Below the pieces are notes generated by a model. That model did no database searches and was not told the origin of the DNA. It saw only the letters and a program-made list of their open reading frames with translations. The position numbers and the translations under genes are program-made. Shown piece after piece: positions 19,092-25,362 of a DNA stretch of 64,000 nt. This DNA is from an uncultured Verrucomicrobiae bacterium (GTDB taxonomy: Bacteria; Verrucomicrobiota; Verrucomicrobiia; Limisphaerales; UBA1100): assembly GCA_937775205.1 (NCBI GenBank), contig CALKBX010000006.1, positions 1 to 64,000 of the forward strand. The letters are read 5' to 3'. Within the stretch, counting starts at the first letter, position 1. Each line of letters opens with the position of its first letter.

Positions 19092-20527
19092 TGCCGGAAA
19101 ACCATTCCAACATCAAGTTTGGTACTGACGGTTGGCGAGCAGTGATGGCTGAAGATTTTACTTTTGCCAACGTACGCGCCGTCGCCCAAGCCACCGCGGA
19201 TTACTTTCGCCGCCGCAAGACCCGAACCACCCGCAAACGGATGGTGGTGGGTTATGATAGGCGTTTTCTCTCGGACGAATTTGCGATGGCGGTAGCCGAA
19301 GTATTGGCGGGCAACGGCTACGAAGTGATTCTCACGCCCACGCCCACGCCTACGCCGGCGGTGTCGTGGGCAGTCAGGGCAGGGCAGGGGAGGGCGGGGG
19401 TGATGGTCACCGCTAGCCACAATCCGGCGCGCTTTAATGGCTACAAACTCAAGCTCCACCACGGCGGCCCGGCCGATCCGGAGACGTGCCGAGGCGTGGA
19501 AGCCCTCATTGGAAAACATCCCGTGCGTTCGATGCCTTTCAAAAAAGCACACTCGCGGAAACTGATTCGTGTGGAGGATATTCGTCCGCGCTATTATCGG
19601 GCATTACGAAAGTTGGTGGATTTCAAACTCATCGCAAAGAGCGGTTTGCGTTTTGGCCACGACGCGCTTTTTGGCGTCGGGGCAGGGTGCTTTGAAGAAT
19701 TGCTCGAGGACACCAATTGCAAGGTCACCACCTTCAATGGCGCGCACGACCCAAACTTCGGCGGCATTTGCCCTGAACCCATTGAGCGCAATTACACCGC
19801 CACGGCGGAGGCGCTTCGGCGCAAGCCGGTGGATTTTTGCCTTGTAACTGATGGTGACGCTGATCGCATCGGCGGCATGGACGGCCGCGGTAATGCGCTC
19901 ACCACTCACCAGATTATTTGCCTCCTGCTCGAACATTTTATTTTGCGCCGGCAAGGGCAGGGGAGGGTAGTGAAAGCGCTCACCACCACTTCGATGGTGG
20001 ATATCATCTGCGGCCGCTACGATCTCGAGCTCACCGAAACCGGCGTGGGCTTCAAATATATCTGCGAGGAAATGCTGCGCGGCGATGTGATGCTCGGCTT
20101 CGAGGAGAGCGGCGGCGTGGGGTTTCCTAATCACGTCCCCGAGCGCGACGGCTTGCTCGCGGGACTGATGATGCTCGAACTGCTCGCGATGGAACAACAA
20201 CCGATCACCAAACTGCTGGCCCGGCTGGACAACGAATATTCACCGCACCGGTACGGTCGCCTCGACACCCAATTTCCGCTGGAAAAACGCAGCGAACTCA
20301 TGGAGCAATGCGCAGTGCATCCGCCCAAGCAATTGCTCGGCTCACCAGTGGAGCGACTGCAAACTTTTGATGGCGTGAAATTCACCGCCCGCAACGGCTG
20401 CTGGCTGATGTTGCGCGGTTCCGGCACCGAGCCAATCCTGCGCATTTACGCTGAAGCCCCCACCGAGGCCGGCGTGGCGCAGATGCTGGAACAGGGCCAA
20501 AACCTCGCGCGCGCCTCGCTCCGGTAG
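19091..20527 (+). CDS. Phosphoglucomutase/phosphomannomutase family protein
   Basis: A 478-residue alpha-D-phosphohexomutase that moves phosphate between the 1 and 6 positions of hexoses. It shows the four family sites: [15 protein letters not shown] at the start, the phosphoserine loop V-T-A-S-H-N-P, the metal-binding D-G-D-A-D-R-I-G, the sugar-binding [13 protein letters not shown] and the C-terminal phosphate-binding R-G-S-G-T-E-P. Sugar specificity (glucose, mannose or glucosamine) cannot be assigned. Two oddities lie before the active-site loop: a TPTPTPTP run and the unusual segment RAGQGRAG, encoded by a G-rich tract containing overlapping GGGCAGGG octamers. A second G-rich tract encodes RRQGQGRVV near residue 290. 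Confidence 0.94.
19377..19400 (+). repeat. Overlapping KOPS-like octamers in a G-rich tract
   Basis: Two overlapping GGGCAGGG copies (19377-19384 and 19382-19389) run into GGGGAGGG (19387-19394) and a G5 run. All fit the E. coli FtsK-orienting consensus GGGNAGGG and all lie on the plus strand, pointing to the candidate dif site at 23.9 kb. The same tract meets the usual G-quadruplex pattern of four G3+ runs with short loops. It lies inside the phosphohexomutase coding region. Confidence 0.55.
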
Positions 20528-22393: not shown

Positions 22394-23866
22394 ATGACAA
22401 AAAACTGGCGCTGGTTCATTTCCAAAACCCTCCGCGAAGCCGTGGAGCTGCACAAGCAAGTCATCAAACTACTCGCCGCCCAACGCGATTTGCTGAAGCC
22501 CTCGCGCGTGGATGAACTCGAAAAGGCACTGGACGCACTTCAAGCCAAGCTCGTTGGCCCCGTTGACAAAGCGGCCGTGCTCGATGAAATGGACGCAATG
22601 ATGATCACCGCCGATCGCGTCCTGTTCCCGTACCCCGACCCCAAGGCGCGTGACTGGGTGGAAATGTTCCTCGTCGTCGCCGTGCTTGTGCTGGCGTTCC
22701 GCACATTCTTTTTCCAACCCTTCAAAATCCCCACCGGCTCGATGCAACCCACACTCTACGGCATCACCATCGAAAACCTGATGGACCGCACCGGCACCGG
22801 CAAAATGGAGCAGGGGATGCTGGCCGCAAATGAGCCCACTTTTGAACCGCAAGACCTCGGCCGAACCGTGACATTCGCCGACGGCAAACATGCCACCATC
22901 ACTCAATTCAAAGACAGCCAACACGTAAAACTTTCATCCTCCAGCGCAGTCGACGAACAAAATTTCACAGTGACCTTCAAGCTTCCCGGCGTAGACGGCA
23001 AGACGACTGATAAGTTGCGTGGCTATTCATACCACTCAATGCAGGCCGATGGAAATTGGCAGCTTGTAGAAATCAAATCACCCAAAACAATATTTCCGCT
23101 AATCAGCAAACAGATTCTTGTGTTCAAAGATTTGAACACAGGCGACAATTTTCAAAAATCTGAATGGTTTCCTCCCTTGGATTCACACCAAAATCCTGTT
23201 TTGTATGAACGAACTGATTTAGATGATCTCAATAGAAGGCCCAACTATGGACAACCCCGTGTTGGCGCTGAATTTTCTAAAGGCGAATACATTTATAAAT
23301 TGAGAGTCAAAACCGGTGACCATTTGTTCGTCAACAGAATTACCTTCAATTTTCGCCGACCAAAGCGCGGTGATATTTGCGTTTTCAGCACCAAGGGCGT
23401 GCCGAAAATTGGCGGTGAAGAAATCTTTTACATCAAGCGCCTAGTCGCACTCAGCGGTGAAACCATTTCAATTGGTCAAGACCGCCATATTCGAATCGAC
23501 CACAGACGGATAGATGCAAACGATTCTGGATTTGAATTCCTTTATGATTTCCCAATCACATTTCTCACCAATGGTATCCAGATCATTTCTGTTCCGACAT
23601 TCGAAACGGCGGATTCCGTTTATTCCGGCCACGTCAATGACAATCATCCCGCCGCCAAAAAAAGAGGAACTTTAGCCCCAAATTTCATTGACTCAAAAGA
23701 TACCCAAACAATCAAGCCTGACCAATACATGATGTTCGGCGATAATACCACCAACAGCTCCGATTCTCGCTACTGGGGCCAACTACCCATGCGCAATGTC
23801 ATCGGAAAATCCTCTTTCGTTTACTGGCCACCACTAAGCCCAAGATTCGGCTGGAGCCATCGATAA
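22394..23866 (+). CDS. lepB: Signal peptidase I with a large internal insertion
   Basis: Membrane serine protease that removes signal peptides from exported proteins. Box B is FKIPTGSMQPTL with the nucleophile Ser116; the general base Lys348 lies in FYIKRLVALSGETI; box E is FGDNTTNSSDSRYWG near the C-terminus. One membrane segment (WVEMFLVVAVLVLAFRTFFF) precedes the catalytic serine, and a roughly 85-residue cytoplasmic helical region forms the N-terminus. The protein has 490 residues, against roughly 320 in E. coli, and Ser and Lys are 232 residues apart, against about 55 in E. coli. The insertion holds the segment LKLPGVDGKTTDKLRG-like beta-rich sequence with no domain I recognise. It is the last plus-strand gene before the candidate dif site. 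Confidence 0.93.
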   Translation: MTKNWRWFISKTLREAVELHKQVIKLLAAQRDLLKPSRVDELEKALDALQAKLVGPVDKAAVLDEMDAMMITADRVLFPYPDPKARDWVEMFLVVAVLVLAFRTFFFQPFKIPTGSMQPTLYGITIENLMDRTGTGKMEQGMLAANEPTFEPQDLGRTVTFADGKHATITQFKDSQHVKLSSSSAVDEQNFTVTFKLPGVDGKTTDKLRGYSYHSMQADGNWQLVEIKSPKTIFPLISKQILVFKDLNTGDNFQKSEWFPPLDSHQNPVLYERTDLDDLNRRPNYGQPRVGAEFSKGEYIYKLRVKTGDHLFVNRITFNFRRPKRGDICVFSTKGVPKIGGEEIFYIKRLVALSGETISIGQDRHIRIDHRRIDANDSGFEFLYDFPITFLTNGIQIISVPTFETADSVYSGHVNDNHPAAKKRGTLAPNFIDSKDTQTIKPDQYMMFGDNTTNSSDSRYWGQLPMRNVIGKSSFVYWPPLSPRFGWSHR

Positions 23867-23900
23867 CCCAATTCCCAAAAGAAATCACACACGGATCCAC

Positions 23901-23928
23901 CTTTCGCACAATATATGTTATATGCAGT
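23901..23928 (-). other. Candidate dif site (XerC/XerD chromosome dimer resolution)
   Basis: In the gap between the convergent genes lepB and glgA, the minus strand reads ACTGCATATAA, spacer CATATA, then TTGTGCGAAAG: an 11-6-11 layout like known dif sites. By my comparison it shares about 19 of 28 positions with the B. subtilis dif. The surroundings agree. KOPS-like GGGCAGGG copies on the plus strand lie at 6253, 13332, 19377, 19382 and 19955. Copies on the minus strand lie at 24916, 25608, 27127, 29706, 29990, 33156, 33161, 36014, 36658 and 50968. All point toward this gap. The site itself is an inference; the octamer polarity is seen directly. Nothing else is recognised in 23867-23955. Confidence 0.5.
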
Positions 23929-23955
23929 TAAGGTTAGTGTGAGTTTGTTACTGTA

Positions 23956-24771
23956 TTAGGCTTTGTATATTTGAAGGTACTGCTCTGCGGCCTTTGGCCA
24001 TGAAAAGTCCTGTGCCATTCCTCGTTCGCGCACCCTTTCCATTTCTTGATCGTCATAAAACATTTTGAGAGCGCGGAGGACTGCTGCTGTTAACTGCGGC
24101 ACTTCAAAACGATCATAACGAATTCCATTGCCCTTGGCCTGGCTGATATCGGTGATGCTGTCCTTGAGGCCGCCGACGGCATGGACGATGGGGATGGTGC
24201 CGTAGCGGAGGCTGTAAAGTTGATTGAGGCCACAAGGTTCAAAACGGGATGGCATCAGGAAGAAATCCGCACCGGCCTCAATTTTGTGCGAAAGGGATTG
24301 GTCGTAACCGATTTCCACTCCAACTCTGTTGGGGAATTCGCCTCGAAGTTGAAGCAGCATTTTTTCCAAATCCTCATCTCCGGAGCCCAACAAGACAAAT
24401 TGGAAACGATTTTCCGGCAACAATTTCGCCAGTGCCTCGACCATTTGCCCGATGCCTTTTTGTTCCGCCAAGCGCGACACCACCGCCAACAGGGGCAAGC
24501 CGTCATCGGGCAAATTGAATATTTCCAGCAAATGTTTTTTGCACGTTGCTTTGCCCGAAAGATTCTTCGAGTCGTATTCAGCAGCCAAATGCGGATTGTC
24601 GCACGTGCGCCACTCGGAGTAATCCACGCCATTGAGGATTCCGGTGAGTCGATCCTGATGTTTCAGCAATTCCCCATCGAGCCCCTCGCCGAATCCTTCT
24701 GTGAGAATTTCCTTTGCATATTGCGGGCTCACCGTTGTGATGGCATCAGCGTAATGCAGGCCGGCCTTCAT
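23956..24771 (-). CDS. glgA: Glycogen synthase, C-terminal part (gene interrupted)
   Basis: C-terminal nucleotide-binding half of a GT5 ADP-glucose-dependent glycogen synthase. It begins NFMKAGLHYADAITTVSPQY and continues GILNGVDYSEW, LPLLAVVSRLAEQKGIGQMV and the catalytic/sugar-nucleotide loop PSRFEPCGLNQLYSLRYGTI with the conserved E-x7-type acid region, then VGGLKDSITD. The same frame continues upstream as RGPEHFGNLNFMKAGL back to an in-frame TAA at 24805-24807. This half and the N-terminal half are therefore in one frame, separated by a short out-of-frame patch. ATG 24771 is merely the first Met after the break. Without repair only a truncated N-terminal protein would be made. Confidence 0.8.
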   Translation of the reverse strand: MKAGLHYADAITTVSPQYAKEILTEGFGEGLDGELLKHQDRLTGILNGVDYSEWRTCDNPHLAAEYDSKNLSGKATCKKHLLEIFNLPDDGLPLLAVVSRLAEQKGIGQMVEALAKLLPENRFQFVLLGSGDEDLEKMLLQLRGEFPNRVGVEIGYDQSLSHKIEAGADFFLMPSRFEPCGLNQLYSLRYGTIPIVHAVGGLKDSITDISQAKGNGIRYDRFEVPQLTAAVLRALKMFYDDQEMERVRERGMAQDFSWPKAAEQYLQIYKA

Positions 24772-24804
24772 AAAGTTCAGGTTCCCAAAATGTTCCGGGC
24801 CGCG

Positions 24805-25362
24805 TTAGTGAAAGAGTTTTGCGGCGAAAGATTGGTGAGCGCAAACTCGATCCGCCTCGCAGGTGCCTTGATACGCGAGGTTGTGAATGCTGAAGATCGT
24901 TCGCGTCGTGCCCTTCCCTGCCCCTTCCTTCAACAGCATTGGCACAATGGCGGTCTGCCAATCGTGCAAATGGGTCACATCAAAATCAGTCGCCAAGCGC
25001 GCCACGGCTTTGCTGAAGAAGATGTATCGTTCGGGGTTATCCCAATACCCTTCCCCGTGTTCCATGTACAGTGCGGGGCGATTATAAAACGCATCGTTTT
25101 CCAGCAACAACACGGTGAGGTTGGGTGAGGGTTGGTGACGCCACCAACGGCCGGTGATTTTGGCTTTCCCCAAGGGCAAATCAAACTCATCACCGATAGC
25201 CTCCAAATCAGGGAATTGCTCTCGGATGCCGCGATACAAGGGCGTGGCCACGGTCACTTCGTGGTTTTGCGTCAAGGCACCGGAAAGTCCCGCAACCATA
25301 TCGGCCAAGCCGCCGGTTTTGGAGTACGGGAAAAATTCGCTGGCCGCCTGGAGGATGCGCAT
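24805..25362 (-). CDS. glgA: Glycogen synthase, N-terminal part (gene interrupted)
   Basis: N-terminal GT5 half: MRILQAASEFFPYSKTGGLA with the ADP-glucose-binding K-T-G-G-L-A-D, then FDVTHLHDWQTAIVPMLL and TIFSIHNLAYQGT, all diagnostic of GlgA, which extends alpha-1,4-glucan from ADP-glucose. After EADR the frame slips: the expected FALTNLSPQNSFTN is read in another frame, while this frame runs to TAA at 24805-24807. A second slip near 24800-24808 restores the frame. Two opposite indels within about 45 nt are needed. The gene starts 7 nt after the serS stop and probably shares its transcript. Confidence 0.8.
   Translation of the reverse strand: MRILQAASEFFPYSKTGGLADMVAGLSGALTQNHEVTVATPLYRGIREQFPDLEAIGDEFDLPLGKAKITGRWWRHQPSPNLTVLLLENDAFYNRPALYMEHGEGYWDNPERYIFFSKAVARLATDFDVTHLHDWQTAIVPMLLKEGAGKGTTRTIFSIHNLAYQGTCEADRVCAHQSFAAKLFH

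Follow-up and report, generated by a model that had tools for sequence, protein, structure and literature searches.

A candidate dif site downstream of lepB, at a KOPS polarity switch, in a draft verrucomicrobial genome

The lepB–glgA gap

The window considered here is a stretch of 64 kb at the start of a contig of 118,323 bp (C6), which belongs to a draft verrucomicrobial genome of 3.25 Mb (31 contigs, 92% complete), probably of the Limisphaerales/Pedosphaerales order. Two convergent genes, lepB and glgA (Table 1), are separated in it by a gap of 89 bp (23867–23955, the lepB stop being at 23866 and the 3′ end of glgA at 23956). This intergenic DNA contains the 28-mer CTTTCGCACAATATATGTTATATGCAGT, which has an 11-6-11 layout and only nine G/C bases; GC content near the gap is 0.48–0.49, against about 0.55–0.58 elsewhere. 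An earlier note on this DNA had proposed a dif site here, read on the minus strand as ACTGCATATAA-CATATA-TTGTGCGAAAG and lying in AT-rich DNA between convergent genes; the letters are exactly as it described, and so is the setting. Its estimate of about 19 matches in 28 to the dif site of Bacillus subtilis was also reproduced by a hand count in the minus orientation.

Table 1. Features of the window around the candidate dif site
Feature	Coordinates	Strand	Basis
Candidate dif site, 28 bp	23901..23928	+	Conserved, with decayed flanks; unique in draft genome; at KOPS/GC-skew switch
Predicted XerC-binding arm CTTTCGCACAA	23901..23911	+	Predicted assignment; inner part CGCACAA as in published XerC arms
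Central hexamer TATATG	23912..23917	+	11-6-11 layout; final G in 66/69 order sites
Predicted XerD-binding arm TTATATGCAGT	23918..23928	+	Predicted assignment; aligns with TTATGTNNANT of class/phylum homologues; A at position 22, where G is usual
lepB, signal peptidase I, converging on site	22394..23866	+	Peptidase_S26, E 6e-34
glgA, glycogen/starch synthase, converging on site	23956..25362	-	Glyco_transf_5 + Glycos_transf_1; translation
GGGCAGGG octamers (KOPS) left of site, pointing at it	nearest 19955..19962; also 6253, 13332, 19377, 19382, 19680	+	Octamer match
GGGCAGGG octamers (KOPS) right of site, pointing at it	nearest 24916..24923; also 25608, 27127, 29706, 29990, 33156, 33161, 36014, 36658, 50968	-	Octamer match

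A weight matrix made from 17 published proteobacterial dif sites placed the 28-mer first on the whole 118-kb contig, at 18.5 bits (the best unrelated match scored 11.5). The 28-mer is also the sole exact match in the window to the dif-type pattern CGCACAATNNNNNTTATRTNNANT, and the sole match to a slightly looser form of that pattern, at up to one mismatch, in the 92% complete draft genome. As the earlier note had suggested, the genome was scanned for a better dif: the canonical CATAATNTANATTATGTNAA, at up to three mismatches, gave four scattered matches, all with three mismatches, and its reversed control gave two. No better dif was thus found in the draft genome, although a second site may lie in DNA absent from the 31 contigs. 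One of the four, the weak dif-like sequence CACAATGTATTTTATCTGAA (L006, at C5:281233–281252; three mismatches to the canonical core), is probably a chance occurrence.

The glgA gene has some peculiarities of its own. It is interrupted by an in-frame TAA (24805–24807, minus strand) where ‘Verrucomicrobia bacterium isolate SZUA-1035’, the closest named relative of the genome, has Ser in an intact GlgA of 467 aa, and the 15 residues before the TAA look locally frame-shifted by comparison with that protein, so that the gene is either a recent pseudogene or affected by draft-assembly errors. Further into glgA (24284–24294, minus strand) is a second exact copy of CTTTCGCACAA, 383 bp from the first, where 0.06 copies would be expected in the window. 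This copy codes for LSHK, conserved residues of GlgA, and is present also in SZUA-1035 and in another relative (G003), so it is likely to reflect codon constraint and coincidence.

Conservation in the family, the order and the phylum

The 28-mer is found immediately 3′ of lepB in ten relatives of the family, so the conservation in the same gap that the earlier note had advised looking for is present at up to four mismatches. In SZUA-1035 it is identical even though the sequence on both sides has diverged; it is identical also in two other relatives, and seven have two to four mismatches. Three more genomes (G001, G008 and G009) have a diverged form, nnnnCGCACAA-TnnnnG-TTATATnnAAT, at the same place downstream of lepB. 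Over 15 sites, pairwise identity is 82–85% in the arms and centre, and falls to 32% and 38% in the 30-bp left and right flanks. A member of another family (G132) has a copy matching at 25 of 28 positions, and its neighbouring genes are unrelated to lepB and glgA. From this copy and the decayed flanks it follows that the conserved unit is the site, and not the lepB–glgA pair.

A single exact occurrence of CGCACAATNNNNNTTATRTNNANT was found in 69 of the 156 genomes of the order, these 69 being from 30 families (the reversed pattern gave none); the invariance of CGCACAA among these 69 sites was imposed by the search pattern. In sampled genomes of three families (f26, f41 and f49), no dif was found at one mismatch. 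In the phylum, CGCAYAATNNNNNTTATRTNNANT detected matches in 123 of 241 genomes, usually one in each (reversed-pattern control, one). Several genomes of other Verrucomicrobiota (G504, G386, G517, G401, G341, G461 and G502) have two dif-type sites. In G504, the two (C1:1991945 and C2:1105824) are each more than 1 Mb into separate long contigs, which could mean that it has two large replicons; in others, a Xer-using mobile element or an assembly overlap is a possible source of the pairing.

Orientation of the arms

By hand count, the B. subtilis site is matched almost equally well in either orientation, at 19 of 28 positions on the minus strand and 18 on the plus strand. The earlier note had placed the XerC arm at ACTGCATATAA and the XerD arm at TTGTGCGAAAG, both on the minus strand. 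The matrix of published sites separates the two readings, giving 18.5 bits to the plus strand and 15.3 to the minus strand, and the gap is wider in the diverged family sites (17.9 vs −8.2 bits for that of G001). Moreover, the homologues in the class and phylum, written in the plus orientation, have the form CGCAYAAT...TTATGT, as in published dif sites. The published proteobacterial sites fit the phylum pattern in the same orientation as the window site, and that of Shewanella oneidensis has the same inner XerC arm, CGCACAA (PMC2731167). Because the phylum homologues and the published sites share this orientation, the predicted XerC arm is CTTTCGCACAA, on the left of the plus strand, and the predicted XerD arm is TTATATGCAGT, on its right. 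The homologues, the published sites and the matrix all favour the plus strand, so the earlier note had the right site with its arms exchanged, and we consider the minus-strand arrangement very improbable. The weakness that it saw in its XerD arm arose from reading the XerC arm backwards (TTGTGCGAAAG), but the arm now assigned to XerD is still atypical, at positions 22 and 25.

KOPS polarity and GC skew

An unbiased count of octamers on three contigs found GGGCAGGG to be the most polarised around the site, with 65 copies directed toward it and one away; the ratio was 24:0 on the window's own contig, and 91:1 on six contigs with a lepB-side site. The window has 16 copies (2.5 expected by chance), and all of them point at the 28-mer, the six on the left being on the plus strand and the ten on the right on the minus strand, which bears out the earlier placing of the site inside a KOPS polarity switch. 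On the contig that holds the window, the polarity of GRGCAGGG reverses within an interval from −1.1 to +1.0 kb relative to the site. A second word, GAGCAGGG, is likewise polarised (28:0). Other anagrams of GGGCAGGG are themselves biased (561 toward, 272 away), so base composition contributes to the polarity but leaves the 65:1 ratio unexplained. Reversal of KOPS orientation at dif is an accepted hallmark (PMC13342612).

The cumulative GC-skew maximum of the contig is 3.8 kb from the site (3.9 kb in G002); the median distance in Proteobacteria is 7.3 kb (PMC2731167). In a high-completeness single-contig genome from another order of the class (G310), the skew maximum and the homologous site are 76 bp apart, and GGGNAGGG is distributed 10:0 on one side and 0:10 on the other. 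In G115, a member of the window's own order, the site likewise marks a reversal of GGGCAGGG (21:3 and 2:14), although the skew does no more than flatten. The contig-level skew maximum fails to pinpoint the site in G003 (which has a broad plateau), G009, G014 and G132, the last having a contig too short for a firm judgement of either skew or KOPS.

Xer recombinases and FtsK

The genome encodes a XerC-like recombinase (its gene is upstream of recF), a XerD-like recombinase (adjoining a purC-like gene) and an FtsK with a gamma domain; the xer gene neighbours were read by eye from translations. Both Xer proteins score below the strict NCBIfam equivalog cut-offs, but each has its highest score with the model expected for it (XerC or XerD), and the best match of XerD is the solved E. 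coli XerD (E 1e-56). A third recombinase (L004) is an unrelated integrase-like protein.

In the established order of events, FtsK loads on KOPS and reaches dif, XerD is activated, and XerC then completes the exchange (PMC5357621). By analogy, FtsK in this organism would load on GGGCAGGG and be steered from both chromosome arms to the 28-mer, where its gamma domain would activate XerD at TTATATGCAGT and XerC would complete the exchange at CTTTCGCACAA, converting chromosome dimers to monomers before cell division. XerC and XerD would be expected to bind the 28-mer and to catalyse recombination there.

Is the element the chromosomal dif?

Might the element instead be a conserved signal of the lepB–glgA gap, acting in transcription or in the RNA, such as a shared terminator or an mRNA 3′ element, whose likeness to dif is coincidental? 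It does lie between two convergent 3′ ends, and within the family it stays beside lepB. However, neither a terminator (or terminator-like hairpin) nor a promoter was found in the gap, a terminator would be unexpected at a KOPS switch, and the homologues extend through the phylum, mostly at one per genome. The copy between unrelated genes in G132 largely refutes such a role, to which we would give hardly any credence. Still more improbable is a Xer site that an integrated mobile element uses or has left behind, as distinct from the chromosome's own dif: dif-like sites are indeed carried by Xer-using elements, and two pattern matches were obtained in some members of the phylum, but here there is a single copy in the draft genome, at the point of KOPS convergence, in a gene context that is constant in the family and with ordinary core genes on both sides.

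The 28-mer is thus conserved, present in single copy, placed where KOPS polarity and GC skew switch, and accompanied in the genome by genes for the three proteins concerned. On this evidence it is very probably the chromosomal dif of this verrucomicrobial genome.

The XerD arm and its recombinase

The XerD arm of the window site (TTATATGCAGT) differs from the usual TTATGT..A at positions 22 and 25 of dif, and so do those of most sites of the order. Among the 69 order sites, position 22 is A in 55 and G in 14, and position 25 is never A. This bias was not built in, because the search pattern accepted either A or G at position 22 and was unrestricted at position 25. All of the 122 genomes with pattern matches outside the order have G22. 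The idea that A22 might be a family-specific trait was rejected, A being the majority state throughout the order (55/69).

The numbering of R220 follows an alignment to the solved chain and a shift of 2, calibrated on R148, a catalytic arginine. In the order, XerD is altered in the helix to which R220 and Q221 of the E. coli protein belong; Q221 was predicted to contact base 24 of dif (PMC2731167). At the place of R220, 19 of 20 XerDs from other Verrucomicrobiota have Arg, as does that of E. coli, but only four of 38 from the order do. When XerDs were paired with their dif sites, all 19 with Arg (E. coli included) went with G22, while the 28 without it went with A (16) or G (12); pooled in this way, and with shared ancestry ignored, the association of R220 with G22 has p = 2e-5. 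Within the order, in a sample deliberately enriched for G22 genomes, G22 accompanies both of the two Arg-bearing XerDs (the dif of one, G066, coming from a one-mismatch search) and 12 of the 28 others, a difference that is not significant (p = 0.21). A strict one-to-one co-variation of R220 with G22 was rejected, because XerDs without Arg pair with both bases, and relaxation alone fits. We therefore raise, as a tentative suggestion that may well prove wrong, that XerD–dif recognition has been relaxed in this order, the R220 equivalent having mostly been lost and base 22 drifting between A and G. The combination of a changed base 22 with an altered DNA-reading helix amounts to a natural experiment on half-site reading by XerD.

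The XerD of the order (L160–L189 were compared) belongs to an unusually divergent lineage, with order-specific residues and an insertion: its members are 59–91% identical to one another and only about 40% identical to those of other orders of the class, a level no higher than with the remainder of the phylum.

Comparison with known systems

In the literature searched, which took in few subscription journals, no experimental study of dif in the phylum Verrucomicrobia was found, and the place and slightly altered sequence of dif had not previously been pinned down for this branch. The site provides a terminus anchor, and with it a KOPS word, for a group known mainly from draft assemblies, and CGCACAATNNNNNTTATRTNNANT allows dif to be located in some 30 families of the order with no need of closed genomes. 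Within the phylum, dif sites were predicted in Opitutus terrae, Akkermansia muciniphila and Methylacidiphilum infernorum by Kono et al. 2011 (PMC3025954); these are of the same kind as the window site, but its order was absent from that set.

The GGGCAGGG octamer fits the KOPS of E. coli and Vibrio cholerae, GGGNAGGG (PMC5357621), and like it is polarised toward dif on both sides, but here the N position is strongly C, and GAGCAGGG is polarised too. Another close parallel is with the XerCD/dif systems of Proteobacteria (PMC2731167), in which, as here, dif is an intergenic 28-bp sequence of 11-6-11 layout and low G+C content near the skew maximum, with CGCAYAA as the inner part of the XerC arm and an XerD arm beginning with TTAT, and is served by two Xer recombinases. 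The window site differs from the proteobacterial ones in having A at position 22 (usually G), C at position 25 (usually a highly conserved A) and G as the last central base.
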